In this document: in pieces, positions 7,961 to 32,578 of the stretch
Numbering within the stretch: the first letter of the stretch is position 1
Layout: every line of letters begins with the position of its first letter
IMG/VR virus record: IMGVR_UViG_3300031658_000054
Span: 1 to 32,578 of that record
From: a virus
Reading direction: 5' to 3' (one strand)
Length of the DNA: 32,578 bases
Program-made: the position numbers and the translations under genes
The notes under the pieces: generated by a model
Database searches by the model: none
Told to the model about the DNA's origin: nothing
The model's input: the letters and a program-made list of their open reading frames with translations, nothing else

Positions 7961-8611
7961 ATGGCAGAAGAAACCACTACCCAAGAAACAACAGAAGCTA
8001 CAACAACAGACGAGAGTACCGGAGAAATAACAGAAACTCTATATTTAGATGGTAAATATAAAAGCGTATCTGATTTAGAGAATGGATACAGAGAGTTAAA
8101 TAAATCTTACACTCAAAAGACACAAGAATTTGGATCATTCCAAGGAGCGCCAGAGGAATATACCTATAATGAAGGTGTAGAAGCAAGTGATTTTGCTACA
8201 AAGTGGGGTAAAGAAAACCAATTATCAAATGATGGACTTAATAGTCTAGTGGATGGTTACAATAAATACCAAGAAGAACAAATAGTAGAGTATCAAAATA
8301 CACAACTTGAAGCACTTGGAGAAAATGGAAAAGAAAGAATCCAAAATGTAAATGATTATCTAAATGCTAACCTTGGAGAAGATCACGGATTAGATGTAGA
8401 TTCAGCAAAAGGAGTTGAAGCATTAGAAAGATTAATATCTTCTAGTAAACAAGCTGCACCAGTATCAAGACCTACAGCACCAAGTGCTAATAGAGATGAT
8501 ATTAGAGAGATGCGATTCGCTAAAGATGAGTATGGTAATAGAAAAATGAGTAGTGATCCTGCTTATAGAGCCAAAATTGAAGCACTAGAACGTGAGATGC
8601 TAGGAGCATAA
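7961..8611 (+). CDS. Capsid scaffolding/assembly protein
   Basis: A 216-residue acidic, largely helical protein directly upstream of the major capsid gene, the usual place for a T7 gp9-type scaffold. The N terminus is Thr/Glu-rich and disordered (about 1-25). It is followed by KYKSVSDLENGYRELNKSYT and GAPEEYTYNEG, a conserved scaffold pattern. The C-terminal helix (MRFAKDEYGNRKMSSDPAYR) resembles the capsid-binding end. Ribosome site AAAGGA. Expected to direct procapsid assembly and leave the mature head. Confidence 0.85.
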   Translation: MAEETTTQETTEATTTDESTGEITETLYLDGKYKSVSDLENGYRELNKSYTQKTQEFGSFQGAPEEYTYNEGVEASDFATKWGKENQLSNDGLNSLVDGYNKYQEEQIVEYQNTQLEALGENGKERIQNVNDYLNANLGEDHGLDVDSAKGVEALERLISSSKQAAPVSRPTAPSANRDDIREMRFAKDEYGNRKMSSDPAYRAKIEALEREMLGA

Positions 8612-9741: not shown

Positions 9742-10305
9742 ATGGCAGGTACATCTTCAGACATACAAATAGCTTCAAATTCACTCATCTTACTCGGTCA
9801 CGAGCCTATTTCTAGTTTTACGGAAGGAACAACTGGATCACAAGTAGCATCTAACTTATACGAATCATCTTACAATAGTATGTTAGTGACTTACAGATGG
9901 AGATTCGCTACAAAGAAAGCTAAACTAGCACGTTTAAGTGAAACACCTTTAAACGATTACAGCTACCAATTCCAATTACCAACAGATCTAATGTATCTTA
10001 TTAGTGCAACTAGCGGTACTGATTATGATATTTACGAAGATAAATTATACAGTAACCAAAAAATAGAAGAGATAGATTATATATATAAAGTAGCAGCGGA
10101 TAAACTCCCTGCATATTATATAAAAGCCTTAGAGTTCTTTTTAGCAATGCAATTTGCAATACCTATTACTGGAGATATTGACAAAATGAGAGCAATGAAA
10201 ACTTTAATGGAAGATCAATTAAGACTAGCAAGACATTCAGATAGCACACAACGTCCTGCAGATACTCTTGATGATAATCCATATTCAGAAGCGAGATGGG
10301 CATAA
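9742..10305 (+). CDS. Tail tubular protein A (gatekeeper/adaptor)
   Basis: A 187-residue protein with the T7 gp11-like pattern: SDIQIASNSLILLGHEPISS at the N terminus, then YRWRFATKKAKLARL, and YIYKVAADKLPAYYIKALEF in the C-terminal helical bundle. In this family twelve copies bind under the portal and link it to the nozzle. Length and position (after capsid, before the nozzle gene) are standard. Ribosome site AAAGGA. Confidence 0.87.
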   Translation: MAGTSSDIQIASNSLILLGHEPISSFTEGTTGSQVASNLYESSYNSMLVTYRWRFATKKAKLARLSETPLNDYSYQFQLPTDLMYLISATSGTDYDIYEDKLYSNQKIEEIDYIYKVAADKLPAYYIKALEFFLAMQFAIPITGDIDKMRAMKTLMEDQLRLARHSDSTQRPADTLDDNPYSEARWA

Positions 10306-19481: not shown

Positions 19482-22010
19482 ATGGCTTACAACAGTAGCG
19501 ATCCGAGAGCAGAATATGTTTCATCATCAGGACAAACAGTATATCCTTTCACTTTTAAGATATACAAAACGTCAGATGTTAAAGCATATCTAACACCGGT
19601 CGGAAACACAGCAAATGATGCAACTGATATTTTAGTATTAGGTGTAAATTACACAATTACAGTAGACGGAGATAATGGAGGTACTTTCACTTTATTAAGT
19701 CCTGCAACAACTGGAGATAAAGTTACGATAACTAGAGATCTTCCAATTATCAGAGATGTTGATTATCAAACATCTGGAGATTTACTAGCAGAAACTTTAA
19801 ATCAAGATCAAAACTATCAAACTTATATGTTAGCAGATAATGCAGCAAAGAATGATAGATATGTTAAAGTTCCGGAATCAGCACAAAATGTTGATACAGA
19901 TCTTCCAAATCCATCAGCAGATAATTATATCAAATGGAACACAGCAGGAACAGCTTTAGAGAATGACACAACTGCTCCAGTTTGGGCAACAGCAGCAGCA
20001 AATAGTGCAGCAGCAGCTTTAGTTAGTGAAGGTTTAGCAGAAGCAGATAAGGTTCAAACTGGATTAGATAGAACAGCTACAAGTAGTGATGCTTCTAGTA
20101 CCGCTCAGGATAGTATAGATACTAATGATGATAAAATACAAACTACTGCAGATGCAGTGTCTACAGCTTTAGATGCAATAGCTACTAGTAATGATAGGGC
20201 AGCTATAGAAGTTATTTATGACAACTTTGACGATAGATATCTAGGAGCTTTTGCAGTAGCACCAACATTAGATAATGATGGGAATCCTTTACAAGTCGGA
20301 GCAATGTATTTTGATACAGTAGTAAATAATACTAGATTCTATAGTGGTGGCTCTTGGGAAGATCCAGAAGCAACTGCAACTGCAGCAGCATTAAGTACAA
20401 CAGCAGATTTAGCACTAACCAACGCAGATGTAGTATCTACAAATGCAGACGTAGTATTAACTAGCGCGGACGTAGTATCTTCTGGAAATAATGCAACAGC
20501 TACTGAGTTAGATAAATGGATTACAGAAGCAGAGCGGATGACTACAGATAGTTATGCTACAGAACCTGAGAATGTATTTGTTAAGAGTTATGTTAGTGAT
20601 GGAGATGGTACATTTACAGCTACGGATACTACAGAGTATTCAGCTCTACATTGGTCAGCTAAAGCAGAAGCATCAGCTCAAGGTACAGCAGCTAATATTG
20701 CTATAGTAGATACAGCTAGTAAGTTTACGGCTACTAATGTTGAAGCTGCTCTATTAGAAACACAGACACTTAGACAATCACATTTATCAAGTGTAGCATC
20801 TTCAGTACTCCTAAATGGTACTTTAGATATCAGTGGTACAGATTTAACTATTACAGATGCTGAGATTATGTATAGCAATGGTTATGATGAGAACGGAGCT
20901 AAGAACTCGGTAGAGATTATAACTGGTACTAATACAATTACTCCTAGCAATGGATATACTGTAAGTGCTGATAACTATATAAAGAAAATAGAAGGTGGTA
21001 CTTACGTTAGTACTGCTGTAGAACCAGTATATGGTAAAGGTAATAGTAGAGCTTCTGCTGTTAATCCTGATGTGTATGTTGATGGTAAATGGTATGATAG
21101 TATTAATGGTAGTGAGAAGGTAACTAATGGTACTTTTGATACTGTAGCAGACGGTGTGTTTGGTTATGATAATGCTGATGGAACAGTTGATGGTATTACT
21201 AATGACCAAGTCAATATTGTATCAAGCATAGTTAATAATACTTTGAATATTGCAAACAACACTGGTGTTGGCGCAGGTATGAGTTACACTATAACAGGTC
21301 TAACTATAGGTACTAAATATACATTAGCTCAGGATAAAGCGTTATCAGCTACACTTGATTACGCAATAACTAGGATATCTTTTGACAGTAGTACATATAC
21401 AACGCTATCTCTAATAACTGACACTACTGTGGGAATATCTAGTGACTTCGTAGCTGATGCAACATCTGTACTTGTTTACAACTACTCTTATGCTGGCGGT
21501 GTAAACCACTCAATTAAGTATGATAATATCAGTCTATTCGAAACCATAGTAACCCCAGCAACTGCCTACACTACACCTATCACATATCTACCCCTAGAAC
21601 TAGAAGTTGATGCTAGTGGTAACCCAGTGTTAATAACTGATACTAAAAAAGTTGAGGTAGTAGCTGAGAAGATAGTGGCTAAGGAAGTAGCTTGTGATAA
21701 CTTTAAAGGTAAGAATGCTTGTACAGCTTGGGTAAACTTTGATGGTACAACTACACCACCTACTATTAGAGATAGTTTTAATGTAAGTGATGTTGTAAGG
21801 ATTAGCAACGCGGTACAAAGAGTGTACTTTTTAGTACCTATGGATAATATCAACTATAGTATCACAACATCAGGGAGAAATGCAACTATTGGAGCTAATA
21901 CTGTAGCTAGTACGAATACTGATTATGTAGAACTTGATATGTACTCTACTCAGAGTACATTCATTGAGCCTAATGTCGTGGGTGTACAAGTCTTTGGAGG
22001 TAAAAACTAA
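19482..22010 (+). CDS. Tail fibre protein (T7-type N-terminal domain)
   Basis: An 842-residue fibre. Residues 1 to about 150 match the T7 tail-fibre attachment domain (GQTVYPFTFKIYKTSDVKAY, VNYTITVDGDNGGTFTLLSP, ITRDLPIIRDVDYQTSGD). Then comes an Ala/Asp/Thr-rich shaft with near-repeats (NADVVSTNADVVLTSADVVS, about residues 310-330). The C-terminal half holds a probable carbohydrate-binding beta-sandwich (NGTFDTVADGVFGYDNADGT through IKYDNISLFE, about 545-685) and a final tip domain. It is the expected receptor-binding protein. Codon texture changes after about 20800, suggesting a swapped host-range portion. Long antisense ORFs here are shadows. Confidence 0.88.
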   Translation: MAYNSSDPRAEYVSSSGQTVYPFTFKIYKTSDVKAYLTPVGNTANDATDILVLGVNYTITVDGDNGGTFTLLSPATTGDKVTITRDLPIIRDVDYQTSGDLLAETLNQDQNYQTYMLADNAAKNDRYVKVPESAQNVDTDLPNPSADNYIKWNTAGTALENDTTAPVWATAAANSAAAALVSEGLAEADKVQTGLDRTATSSDASSTAQDSIDTNDDKIQTTADAVSTALDAIATSNDRAAIEVIYDNFDDRYLGAFAVAPTLDNDGNPLQVGAMYFDTVVNNTRFYSGGSWEDPEATATAAALSTTADLALTNADVVSTNADVVLTSADVVSSGNNATATELDKWITEAERMTTDSYATEPENVFVKSYVSDGDGTFTATDTTEYSALHWSAKAEASAQGTAANIAIVDTASKFTATNVEAALLETQTLRQSHLSSVASSVLLNGTLDISGTDLTITDAEIMYSNGYDENGAKNSVEIITGTNTITPSNGYTVSADNYIKKIEGGTYVSTAVEPVYGKGNSRASAVNPDVYVDGKWYDSINGSEKVTNGTFDTVADGVFGYDNADGTVDGITNDQVNIVSSIVNNTLNIANNTGVGAGMSYTITGLTIGTKYTLAQDKALSATLDYAITRISFDSSTYTTLSLITDTTVGISSDFVADATSVLVYNYSYAGGVNHSIKYDNISLFETIVTPATAYTTPITYLPLELEVDASGNPVLITDTKKVEVVAEKIVAKEVACDNFKGKNACTAWVNFDGTTTPPTIRDSFNVSDVVRISNAVQRVYFLVPMDNINYSITTSGRNATIGANTVASTNTDYVELDMYSTQSTFIEPNVVGVQVFGGKN

Positions 22011-28533: not shown

Positions 28534-28542
28534 GAGGGTAAG

Positions 28543-29052
28543 ATGAGAATATTTGAAATAGGGGAGCAGTTCCAAGCCCTTTACGAAATGGCCGAACAAA
28601 TAGAAACAGATGAAGACGGAAATACAATAGATAATAGCGATACTTTAGCGGAATTATTCGATGAGTTAGGAAGTAACTTAGAAGGTAAGCTAGAAAATAC
28701 CAACTATATTATCAAAGAATTAGCTGGAGTAGAGCAAATGCTAAAAGATGAAGCTAGAAGACTTACAGAAAAAGCAAAAGTGATGGGAAATAGACAAGCT
28801 AGATTAAAGGATCTAATTAAAAATGCGATCGAGTCAAGTGGTCAAGATAAAATAAAAACTGATAAATTTAGTTTTACTGTAAAAACTTTAGAGTCTTATA
28901 ATTATGAAGATGTTTCTTTGTTTGGTTTAGATAGTAAATTTGTAAGAGTCAAAGAAGAAATCGATAAAACTAAATTAAAAGAATTTATAAAAGCTGGTGG
29001 TTTTATAGATGGTATAAAAATAGATACTAAAACAAGTTTGACTATTAGATGA
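28543..29052 (+). CDS. Siphovirus Gp157-family protein
   Basis: A 169-residue protein. The N-terminal helical region (GEQFQALYEMAEQIETDEDG) leads to a long coiled coil (LENTNYIIKELAGVEQMLKD, EARRLTEKAKVMGNRQARLK) and a C-terminal strand-rich part with FVRVKEEIDKTKLKEFIKAG. This is the layout of Gp157 proteins, found next to ERF/RecT genes. The function is uncertain, perhaps host-range or recombination related. Ribosome site AGGAGGG. It overlaps the next gene by 4 bases. Confidence 0.82.
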   Translation: MRIFEIGEQFQALYEMAEQIETDEDGNTIDNSDTLAELFDELGSNLEGKLENTNYIIKELAGVEQMLKDEARRLTEKAKVMGNRQARLKDLIKNAIESSGQDKIKTDKFSFTVKTLESYNYEDVSLFGLDSKFVRVKEEIDKTKLKEFIKAGGFIDGIKIDTKTSLTIR

Positions 29053-29387
29053 AGATTAGTACACATTTTCAGAAATTCTTTTTTGCTGCGGTTATTCCAG
29101 AGGTAAAGAAAGCGCAGCAACCTTTAAAGTATCAGAATCCATTTACAATGGAATGGTACTTATTGGATATGAGCAAAGTTTCGAATGATGGTATATATAA
29201 TATGATGAAGCTTATTAATCCACACTATCCTAAGCTGCAGAATCTATTACCTGCTAGTACAAAAGTATTAGACAGTAAGATGATGACACAGCACATACAA
29301 TGGATAGAAAGATTCCTAAGTCAGAACGGACATACGTGCAAGTACATTGAAGAAGAATGGAACAGAATATTAGAAGAATCAAGATAA
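29049..29387 (+). CDS. Conserved-looking phage protein, unknown
   Basis: A 112-residue protein (FAAVIPEVKKAQQPLKYQNP, then MSKVSNDGIYNMMKLINPHY). No catalytic motif seen. It starts with ATGA in the Gp157 stop. The aromatic-rich N half and helical C half suggest a compact fold. It is part of the early recombination operon. Confidence 0.6.
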   Translation: MKISTHFQKFFFAAVIPEVKKAQQPLKYQNPFTMEWYLLDMSKVSNDGIYNMMKLINPHYPKLQNLLPASTKVLDSKMMTQHIQWIERFLSQNGHTCKYIEEEWNRILEESR

Positions 29388-29438
29388 CTATGGGACTAGT
29401 TTTGAATTGAATGATTATAAACTAAAAAAGGAAGCAAT

Positions 29439-29876
29439 ATGAAGATATTAAAATTAAAATATAAAACAATTAAGTCTACGGAAACAGGAAGAATCTGGCT
29501 AGATAGAAACATAGGAGCATCAAGAGTAGCTGAAAGTTCAGATGACAAATTATCTTATGGGCATTACCTAACACACAAAGAAGCTAAAGCTATAGCTAAA
29601 TTAGTCAAGGGTTTTAGATTGCCAACACCAGAAGAGTTTAAAGCAGAAGAGTTAGATAATAGCTCTAATGCTTTTAATAAACTTAAAATGCCGATGCCTG
29701 GCTACCGGAATAGGACAGGCGGTGCCGTGAGCAGCGAAGGTTCGGGCGGCCACTGTTGGTCTGGGTCTGTTTCTGGCACAAATGCCCGTTACTTGTTCTT
29801 CAGCTCGAGTGCTACGTACCCCGACAACACGAGCAATCGAGCGTACGGGTTTAGCGTTAGATTAATAAAGAATTAA
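29439..29876 (+). CDS. DGR-type variable protein with C-type-lectin/Fib_succ-like domain
   Basis: A 145-residue protein of the Fib_succ/FGE-like lectin fold: GRIWLDRNIGASRVAESSDD (about 17-36), YGHYLTHKEAKA, GFRLPTPEEF (58-67), NAFNKLKMPMPGYRN (77-91), then HCWSGSVSGTNARYLF (105-120) and the closing NRAYGFSVRLIK (133-144). In known diversity-generating retroelements this is the layout of the variable target protein, with Asn/Ser/Tyr-rich positions around the conserved W and the final GFSVR. The DNA of the last third is GC-rich and unlike the rest. It lies in the early operon rather than beside tail genes. No reverse transcriptase or template repeat is visible. It would be a ligand-binding display protein. 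Confidence 0.8.
   Translation: MKILKLKYKTIKSTETGRIWLDRNIGASRVAESSDDKLSYGHYLTHKEAKAIAKLVKGFRLPTPEEFKAEELDNSSNAFNKLKMPMPGYRNRTGGAVSSEGSGGHCWSGSVSGTNARYLFFSSSATYPDNTSNRAYGFSVRLIKN
29695..29860 (+). other. Probable variable region (VR) of a diversity-generating system
   Basis: Over 29701-29860 the hand-counted GC is 92/160 (57%), against 41/120 (34%) just upstream. The codons encode the lectin-fold ligand-binding face (residues ~86-141), where A-to-N mutagenesis of Asn (AAC) codons would give the observed mix of His, Cys, Ser, Thr, Asp and Tyr. The boundaries are sharp, returning to AT-rich sequence at the last 5 codons. A template repeat was looked for and not found. Confidence 0.6.
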
Positions 29877-29888
29877 AGGATAAATAAA

Positions 29889-30242
29889 ATGAGTATATCT
29901 AAAGAATTATTAAGTGAAGTAATAGGTGTTGATGTCCGATATATGAGTGATGAGTATGATGGAAACCTAGTGCCTTATGAAACGAGAGAGGGTTGGAAAA
30001 CAATTAACATATACGAATTAGCTCATAAGTGTAAAGAGTGGGCTTTATTAAATGGGTTCGACATAATAACCGTAGAAATAGATGAACAATATGTAATATT
30101 AACACCAGATGATTGGCAAACAACCAAAAAGGAGAAGAGAGGCATGAGTTTTGTTATATCCTCTTCTTTTGAAGCTCAAAACACAGAACATGAGGCAATC
30201 TTTAAAGCTTGTCAATGGATATTAGAGAATAAGGATAAATAA
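29889..30242 (+). CDS. Phage protein, unknown
   Basis: A 117-residue protein starting 12 bases after the lectin-fold gene, with AAAGGA as ribosome site. YELAHKCKEWALLNGFDIIT and EHEAIFKACQWILENK are conserved-looking, and the protein is alpha/beta. No function recognised. Confidence 0.6.
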   Translation: MSISKELLSEVIGVDVRYMSDEYDGNLVPYETREGWKTINIYELAHKCKEWALLNGFDIITVEIDEQYVILTPDDWQTTKKEKRGMSFVISSSFEAQNTEHEAIFKACQWILENKDK

Positions 30243-30443
30243 ATGACAATTAAAATGCTTAATGAAATAAAAGAAATAGCAATAATATCTAAAGCACAAA
30301 CCAAACCTAATAAAGTATACCAGACTACAGGTGCAGAAGCTATAGAGTTATGGGATATTATATTAGAGTTAATAGATGATAATATTAAATTACAGTTAGA
30401 GAAGCCTAAAACCAGAATAGTGTATAGACTAAAAGGAAAATAA
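30243..30443 (+). CDS. Small phage protein, unknown
   Basis: A 66-residue protein (MTIKMLNEIKEIAIISKAQT) directly abutting the previous stop. Its centre GAEAIELWDIILELIDDNI is helical. No family recognised. Part of the early operon. Confidence 0.55.
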   Translation: MTIKMLNEIKEIAIISKAQTKPNKVYQTTGAEAIELWDIILELIDDNIKLQLEKPKTRIVYRLKGK

Positions 30444-30444
30444 A

Positions 30445-30543
30445 ATGCCAACAATTAAAGAACAAAAACAATTAAGAAAAGATATAGCAAATGATTTATT
30501 CTTACATAATAGAGTAATGGAATTTTTAAAAGGAGTAAAATAA
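30445..30543 (+). CDS. 32-residue peptide, unknown
   Basis: A short basic helical ORF (MPTIKEQKQLRKDIANDLFL) one base after the previous stop, sharing TAATG with the HNH gene. AAAAGGA precedes the start. Only position supports it. Confidence 0.4.
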   Translation: MPTIKEQKQLRKDIANDLFLHNRVMEFLKGVK

Positions 30544-30863
30544 TGGGAGTGCTTTCAAAATCAAAAGAAGATCCCTTTGATAAAAAAGCATACTTCAATT
30601 ATTTGCATAATAGCGATCAGAGATGTATAATATGCAATAGTTCAAATATCGAGCTGCATCATATCACAGATCTAAAAAATATTAAAGGAGCAAGGAGAGA
30701 TGACAAAAGACTGGTTATTTTATGTAAAAACCACCATAAGGAGAGCAAATTTGGAATACATATTATGAGTAAAGAAGAATTTTACACCGAGGTTATGGAC
30801 TTTGATACGTTAATGTATCATTCAAACAGATTATACCAAGAGTATTTAAAGGAAACAAAATGA
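30543..30863 (+). CDS. HNH nuclease
   Basis: A 106-residue protein with an HNH/zinc motif: C28-x-x-C31, then ELHHITDL (H39, H40), then VILCKNHHKES (C61, H64, H65) and H73. It has the compact treble-clef layout of small phage HNH endonucleases found in recombination or nicking modules. It overlaps the secreted-peptide gene by 4 bases, with ribosome site AAAAGGAG. It may act in recombination together with ERF and SSB, or as a packaging-associated nickase. Confidence 0.82.
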   Translation: MGVLSKSKEDPFDKKAYFNYLHNSDQRCIICNSSNIELHHITDLKNIKGARRDDKRLVILCKNHHKESKFGIHIMSKEEFYTEVMDFDTLMYHSNRLYQEYLKETK

Positions 30864-31048
30864 GAACAATATTAAAAACACTAATAATTACAGCAATAAT
30901 GATGGTAGCTTCACAAGCTGATGTATACGTAAAAGGCTATTACAAGAAGAGTGGAACTTATGTAGCACCTTATGTTAGAAGCAATCCAGATAAAAATCCT
31001 TACAATAATTATTATAGTAAGCCACAAAAATACAAGTACGGATATTAA
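30860..31048 (+). CDS. Small secreted peptide (GYY...NPYNNY type)
   Basis: A 62-residue protein with a signal peptide (MRTILKTLIITAIMMVASQA). The mature part, VYVKGYYKKSGTYVAPYVRS plus NPDKNPYNNYYSK, is a Tyr/Lys/Pro-rich pattern found in small bacterial periplasmic proteins. Its presence in an early phage operon is unusual. Envelope modification or superinfection exclusion is possible, without direct evidence. Confidence 0.65.
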   Translation: MRTILKTLIITAIMMVASQADVYVKGYYKKSGTYVAPYVRSNPDKNPYNNYYSKPQKYKYGY

Positions 31049-31525: not shown

Positions 31526-31846
31526 ATGAAAACATCACTTTATAGATACTATGATAAACGCAAACGATTATTATATATCGGAATAAGCATTAATCCATTC
31601 AAGAGATTATCTCAACACAAGAGAGATAAGTCTTGGGAACATTTGATCCACGATATAAAGATAGAAACATTTAAAACAAGAAAAGAAGCATTTATCGAAG
31701 AGGAAAAAGCTATTAAGAGCGAAAACCCTAGATGGAACAAAATACACAACAAGAATAGAAAAATAGATCACGAGTGGTATATAAATAAAGTTGCTAAATA
31801 TTTAACAGCAATACTAGTTATATACTTAATAATACCAGGAGAGTAA
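31526..31846 (+). CDS. GIY-YIG nuclease with C-terminal membrane tail
   Basis: A 106-residue protein. LYRYYDKRKRLLYIGISINP (residues 5-24) is the GIY...YIG core, FKRLSQHKRDKSW holds the catalytic Arg (R27) and EAFIEEEKAIKSENPRWN holds the catalytic Glu (about E59). This is the compact UvrC/homing-nuclease type. Unlike usual members it ends in a hydrophobic stretch (KYLTAILVIYLIIPGE, about 90-106) that could anchor it in the membrane. It is followed by a methyltransferase, suggesting a restriction-modification-like or homing pair. Its left-edge copy at 1-189 is nearly identical. Confidence 0.82.
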   Translation: MKTSLYRYYDKRKRLLYIGISINPFKRLSQHKRDKSWEHLIHDIKIETFKTRKEAFIEEEKAIKSENPRWNKIHNKNRKIDHEWYINKVAKYLTAILVIYLIIPGE

Positions 31847-31847
31847 A

Positions 31848-32513
31848 ATGAAATTATATAATGAAGATTGCTTAGTAGCAATGGATAGACTGATAGAACA
31901 AGGTGTAGTGGTAGATGCTATTATAACAGACCCACCCTACAAAGTCATTAGTGGAGGAAAGCCAACTAAGAAAGGACAACCATCAGGATTGCTATCTAAA
32001 AATGATGGGAAAATATTTAAACATAATGATTTGAAGGAAGAAGATTGGTTTCCTAAAATATTTGAACTTCTGAAAGAAGGTGGACATTGTTATATAATGG
32101 TAAATACTTTAAATCTTGAAAGATATTTAAGACTAGCAAGAGAAACAGGGTTTAAGTTACATAACTTATTGGTATGGGAAAAGAGCAACTGTACTCCCAA
32201 CAGATGGTATATGAAAAATTGCGAATATACTTTGTTTCTTAGAAAAGGCAAAGCAAACCCTATAAAAATGCTTGGGTCAAAAACAGTACATAAATTTAAA
32301 AATGAGAGTAATAAAGCACATCCATCAGAAAAACCTTTAGAATTAATGAGCTTATATGTTGAGAATAGCACAAATGAAGGTGAGTTAGTTTTAGACTTTA
32401 CAATGGGAAGTGGAAGCACAGGAGTAGCTTGTAAGAATTTAAATAGAGATTTTATAGGAATAGAAATGGATGAAAACTATTTTAATATCGCAAAAGAAAG
32501 GATTAGAAAATGA
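31848..32513 (+). CDS. DNA methyltransferase, allele 2 (beta-class, DPPY)
   Basis: A 221-residue methyltransferase. DPPY (28-31) precedes FTMGSGSTG (about 184-192). The core is different from allele 1: KVISGGKPTKKGQPSGLLSK, a LLKEGGHCYIMVNTLNLERY strand region and NRWYMKNCEYTLFLRKGKAN with HPSEKP. It has the same first 31 residues (few base changes) and the same last ~42 as the copy at 191-907. The exchanged part covers the catalytic-domain body, so target specificity is probably different. It overlaps the next ORF by 4 bases. Confidence 0.9.
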   Translation: MKLYNEDCLVAMDRLIEQGVVVDAIITDPPYKVISGGKPTKKGQPSGLLSKNDGKIFKHNDLKEEDWFPKIFELLKEGGHCYIMVNTLNLERYLRLARETGFKLHNLLVWEKSNCTPNRWYMKNCEYTLFLRKGKANPIKMLGSKTVHKFKNESNKAHPSEKPLELMSLYVENSTNEGELVLDFTMGSGSTGVACKNLNRDFIGIEMDENYFNIAKERIRK

Positions 32514-32578
32514 GCTACACAGAATACATCAGGAGAGTAGAAGCGATCAAATCAAGTGCAGCTTCAATAGAAAGAAGA
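32510..32578 (+). CDS. Small charged protein, N-terminal part (cut by window end)
   Basis: The first 23 codons (MSYTEYIRRVEAIKSSAASI and on) of the same gene as 904-1086, with one amino-acid change (H3 to Y). It starts in the ATGA overlap of the second methyltransferase. Confidence 0.7.
   Translation, partial: MSYTEYIRRVEAIKSSAASIERR

Follow-up and report, generated by a model that had tools for sequence, protein, structure and literature searches.

The window analyzed here, which spans a virus record of IMG/VR in full (32,578 bases), raises the question of why a phage would carry a gene resembling the variable target of a DGR while encoding no reverse transcriptase. The gene, at 29439-29876 on the forward strand, had been described in an earlier note, made from the sequence alone, as a DGR-like variable protein whose ligand-binding third forms a GC-rich island, and which might be diversified in trans by a host or coinfecting element, or be a captured product.

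The FISUMP gene and its place in the phage genome

The open reading frame starts with an ATG, encodes 145 amino acids and is preceded by a likely ribosome-binding site, AAGGAAG, at 29428-29434 on the same strand. Its product matched PF09603 (E=0.0012) and TIGR02145 (E=2.2e-4) weakly, in both cases under the curated cut-off. However, a custom profile built from seven other viral FISUMP C-termini, with the window left out, and run against all window ORFs, found the protein with E=2.4e-19, the next-best ORF of the window reaching 0.09. Moreover, the protein could be aligned at 34-43% identity with full viral FISUMP proteins, gathered by scanning viral contigs for the motif W-(L/M)-DRN-GA; it retains their N-terminal motif, the GFRLPT motif and the entire C-terminal segment, and is devoid of the central insert found in the others. 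It also begins directly at the domain, with no N-terminal extension. On these profile matches and alignments, the protein can be assigned to the FISUMP, or Fib_succ_major, domain family, which bears out the Fib_succ layout proposed earlier, and the gene can be described as a compact FISUMP (Fib_succ_major-type) gene and a putative orphan DGR target.

Searches beyond the family profiles returned little. As regards a C-type-lectin-like fold, two structure predictions were of too poor quality for use, and a structure search with a low-confidence model (pLDDT 55.6, pTM 0.51) gave no meaningful match in the PDB or among viral structures. No tblastn match to the protein was obtained in phages, plasmids or viral contigs, and the lone match in a sample of 398 genomes was spurious, as it contained internal stops. 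A second sample of 398 genomes held five FISUMP genes, all encoding secreted-type proteins, and no YxDD ORF was found near any of these five.

The record has a podovirus-like layout, in which the terminase (3226), head-tail connector (5660) and major head protein (8841) are followed by tail proteins, a tail fibre gene (19482-22010) and an endolysin (23358). A DnaB-like helicase (24915) lies in a leftward replication block, and a rightward block holds ERF (27967), Gp157 (28543), the FISUMP gene (29439), an HNH protein (30543), SSB (30972) and a DNA methylase (31848). This arrangement supports the early-operon position away from tail genes remarked upon in the earlier note. A role as tail fibre is disfavoured, since the structural block does not include this gene, and the phage has a separate tail fibre gene. 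The closest relatives of the portal in the genome collection were only 32-36% identical.

We then compared the region with ten related virus records, chosen by portal protein (the best being approximately 50% identical). In two of these phages (G004 and G006), tblastn of the window proteins placed the erf and ssb matches only about 0.5 kb apart, whereas in the window the two genes are separated by 2.4 kb (28534-30971, forward strand) that contain small genes besides Gp157 and the FISUMP gene. Based on this difference, the longer stretch was taken to be accessory, and the FISUMP gene, as judged from gene order in relatives, is accessory cargo. No FISUMP match was detected in the ten records, most of which are fragments. 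Pfam, PHROGs, NCBIfam and PADLOC gave nothing convincing for the small neighbouring genes at 29049-29387 and 29889-30242, which also had no match in the fetched relatives and may share the accessory block with the FISUMP gene.

Search for a reverse transcriptase, a template and homing signals

The weight to be given to a missing reverse transcriptase depends on the completeness of the record. Bases 1-972 match 31658-32578 on the same strand, a terminal overlap of approximately 0.95 kb, and as this match runs from the first base of the record to the last, it was read as a circle or as terminally redundant ends. Either is the simplest account of the overlap, a tandem duplication being less likely. 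The record, earlier called near complete, is effectively complete: its ends overlap and it closes on itself, giving a genome of approximately 31.6 kb. The absence of a reverse transcriptase from the phage can be stated more firmly for that reason. The two end copies also differ in one respect. The left one holds a methylase allele (A, 191-907) and the right one another (B, 31848-32513), with common flanks and with middles that are unrelated between roughly bases 280 and 785 of the left copy. Neither ORF is disrupted, and the two have different type II methylase models as their best matches. Two phage haplotypes thus seem to coexist and to swap the central part of the methylase, which points to a mixed population.

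No RVT_1 match was found in the window by profile search, which did recover matches in three control genomes, and no window ORF of 150 amino acids or more contains a reverse transcriptase-type YxDD motif. Likewise, an adenine-tolerant scan of both strands detected no template-like repeat. Both absences agree with what had been noticed previously. In addition, the ten related records, mostly fragments, gave no RVT_1 match.

The search was extended to a template outside the phage, with five exact patterns in IMG/VR and one in GTDB contigs. These searches spanned 2.9 million viral contigs and 85,000 species genomes, with patterns that fix guessed constant positions and leave mutable ones free, so that a diverged template would be missed. 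The 5' and 3' patterns had no match in viral contigs, and the centre pattern had none in genomes or viruses. The 17-mer TGGTCTGGGTCTGTTTC occurred at five viral loci, whose surroundings are unlike the segment beyond the 17-mer, and the tail pattern led to one locus (L040) that differs from the segment by 25 mismatches, only 6 of them at template adenines, and lies in an unrelated gene; it was attributed to chance. The same applies to a scan of 369 genomes, from one class around a Methylophaga MAG, which at up to 3 mismatches returned 3 matches against 7 for the reversed control. Finally, blastn of the segment found nothing in phages, and two matches of approximately 30 nt in plasmids (E 0.2-0.6) were discarded. 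The earlier note had called for a template matching the island with mismatches at adenines; none was found in the viral, GTDB, phage or plasmid collections, or in the sample of 369 genomes.

Homing signals of the BPP-1 type, namely a hairpin and a 14-bp GC-only run, are absent downstream of the island. The longest GC-only run measures 9 nt and lies off the 3' end, the only stems are AT-rich and of 5 bp, and the fold z-score is 0.19. It should be considered that the type of IMH varies, as the element of T. denticola is not GC-only (PMC4891356).

The composition island and its counterparts on other viral contigs

The composition of the C-terminal segment does set it apart from the remaining genome. 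Between 29694 and 29861, GC is 0.571, A is 0.196 and third-position C is 0.39, while 4785 in-frame windows over twelve other genes gave a mean GC of 0.346 (SD 0.034, maximum 0.446) and a mean third-position C of 0.085 (maximum 0.286). The highest GC of any other 168-nt stretch in the record is 0.452. Maximum-likelihood edges were placed at 29690 and 29856 (forward strand), with GC of 0.59 between them, so that both the edges (29695-29860) and the contrast of 57% against 34% GC given previously were accurate. None of 140 stretches drawn at random from the genome reaches the likelihood gain of the island, 27.2 (their maximum is 17.3). The island corresponds to the putative variable region, encoding 'P..GYR ... 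W.G..SG..AR.L ... NRAYGFSVR', and is sharp-edged within the binding domain, as required of a DGR target. The N-terminal part of the gene has a composition ordinary for this genome, which argues that the gene as a whole is no recent import from a GC-richer source and that the segment alone differs.

Nevertheless, the island by itself does not prove rewriting, as a foreign segment would also produce one. Depletion of A, in particular, was dropped as proof of DGR activity, since some of the low-A signal at third positions is shared by control FISUMP domains lacking an island, and is partly due to the amino acids of FISUMP proteins.

Other viral FISUMP domains were examined as controls. Contig IMGVR_UViG_3300025769_000715 (G015), a phage contig whose very long protein set includes four or more FISUMP domains, carries two paralogous, island-bearing domains at 8178-8363 and 9765-9950 (L047). 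The C-termini of this pair reach GC of 0.61-0.62 in a 26-kb contig of GC 0.38. Measured from the LK codon, the best island edges are +6 to +180 and +12 to +180 nt for the pair, +6 to +180 for a further control (G011) and +8 to +175 for the window, so that the edges of the pair fall within about 5 nt of those of the window in the domain frame. Measured against its own contig, none of these three control islands has a significant likelihood gain, and FISUMP domains G015c, L019 and G014 have no island.

The G015 pair is informative also in the way its two members differ. Inside the segment, differences amount to 22, 17 and 18 at codon positions 1, 2 and 3, interspersed with long identical blocks, against 27, 26 and 67 upstream of it (chi-square about 9, 1 degree of freedom, calculated by hand). 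This pattern, probably that of two targets of one template, occurs in a 26-kb record without a reverse transcriptase match. The island and the DGR-type change coincide in G015, the sole case showing both, and this tips the balance towards a DGR origin for the segment in the window, as more probable than not but short of proof.

A second pair, from related phages, behaved differently. In L019 (7503-8999) and L042 (14922-16418), the FISUMP domain is part of a fusion with a repeat-rich protein, and the C-terminal part diverges faster (28% of bases, against 4-15% elsewhere), mostly at third positions. As the change is third-position-heavy, this pair was ruled out as a further DGR case. It resembles the window in having a FISUMP domain on phage contigs with no reverse transcriptase found, and in the KGFRLPT and VRLI motifs, and differs from it in the fusion to a long repeat-rich protein, the lack of an island and the ordinary divergence.

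Origin of the C-terminal segment and its meaning

The reading we tentatively prefer, with slightly less than even confidence, is that a DGR-type target gene travels as accessory cargo in a podovirus-like phage without a retroelement, as an essentially frozen variant. The FISUMP gene would have been gained between erf and ssb, and a DGR external to the phage genome would have written its C-terminal segment by template-directed mutagenic homing, before capture or rarely since. The variant now held would be essentially frozen, which we favour over rewriting whenever the phage meets a cell or a partner with a matching template. The protein would be expressed from an early-type gene block as a small, intracellular ligand-binding protein; family and position suggest the binding role, the early expression and the site, and the lack of an N-terminal extension beyond the domain points to an intracellular role. 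Against this reading stand the lack of a template in any collection searched, the absence of BPP-1-type signals, the non-significant control islands and the missing reverse transcriptase of G015.

A serious rival, which we regard as somewhat unlikely, is that the FISUMP binding domain of the protein is an ordinary one, no DGR product, with a C-terminal segment recombined from a GC-richer genome and since subject to normal mutation. Sharp edges and high third-position GC would be expected in this case too, FISUMP proteins do occur in phage contigs with no detected reverse transcriptase, the L019/L042 pair diverges in an ordinary, third-position-heavy manner, and no template was found in the collections searched. 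However, the edges in the window nearly coincide with those of the G015 islands, which bear DGR-type differences, and searches of phages, plasmids, viral and GTDB contigs yielded no DNA of a donor. Present-day rewriting in trans is possible, and it agrees with an island that has not drifted to the genome composition, unlike the rest of the gene, as if it were being renewed. Moreover, BPP-1 lacking avd, TR and brt was diversified in the laboratory by a supplying plasmid (PMC3240598), and cyanobacteria commonly have remote targets inside the same genome (PMC7517822). Active diversification during infection by the DGR of a host or co-infecting element, with many variants in the population, is nevertheless unlikely, given the lack of a template match to the patterns used and of BPP-1-type homing signals. 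That an early phage gene serves as such a target, yielding a diversified intracellular binding protein with no retroelement of its own, is quite unlikely. It would be very surprising if the retroelement belonged to the phage and were merely absent from the assembled haplotype: the ends of the record mix at least two haplotypes, so gene content may vary, but the conserved flanks on either side of the methylase overlap and leave no gap for a cassette of approximately 2 kb, and the related records, mostly fragments, had no RVT_1 match. Overall, the family, the sharp island at the place of a variable region and the missing reverse transcriptase and template of the earlier DGR reading stood, while writing by a DGR is putative and present-day diversification, in trans or otherwise, hypothetical.

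Several known systems share part of this combination. DGR variable proteins with Fib_succ_major or DUF1566 domains are known from human microbiomes (PMC4159848); they belong to the same domain family and their variable part is C-terminal, but they were detected through RT, TR and VR, whereas the window gene comes without RT or TR and encodes a stand-alone protein of 145 amino acids, without the central insert, in an early-type gene block. As precedents for the orphan reading, targets without a reverse transcriptase occur in Nanoarchaeota (PMC4372165) and in Treponema denticola isolates, which lack the template as well (PMC4891356). As in the window, both are missing from the locus or genome; in those cellular genomes, however, the template of a relative shows adenine-specific mismatches, while for this phage no template was found. 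The mtd gene of BPP-1 (PMC3240598) resembles ours in being carried by a phage and in having a variable segment of lectin type at the C-terminus (a putative one, by family, in the case of the window), and trans supply to it works in an engineered setting. Unlike ours, it encodes a tail protein, adjoins avd, TR and brt, and has an IMH and a hairpin. Within a limited search of open-licence papers, no report was found of a phage in nature whose target is diversified by a DGR from another genome.

A gene of DGR-target type, devoid of its retroelement, in a phage whose genome is effectively complete is a real and unusual observation, though not proven to be a DGR product. A large metagenome survey sought variable regions adjoining reverse transcriptases and states that remote targets would be missed (PMC8144416). 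If variable proteins do travel in phages without a retroelement, DGR targets would be under-counted, and phages could borrow the mutator of another genome; the composition island offers a template-free route to further such genes.
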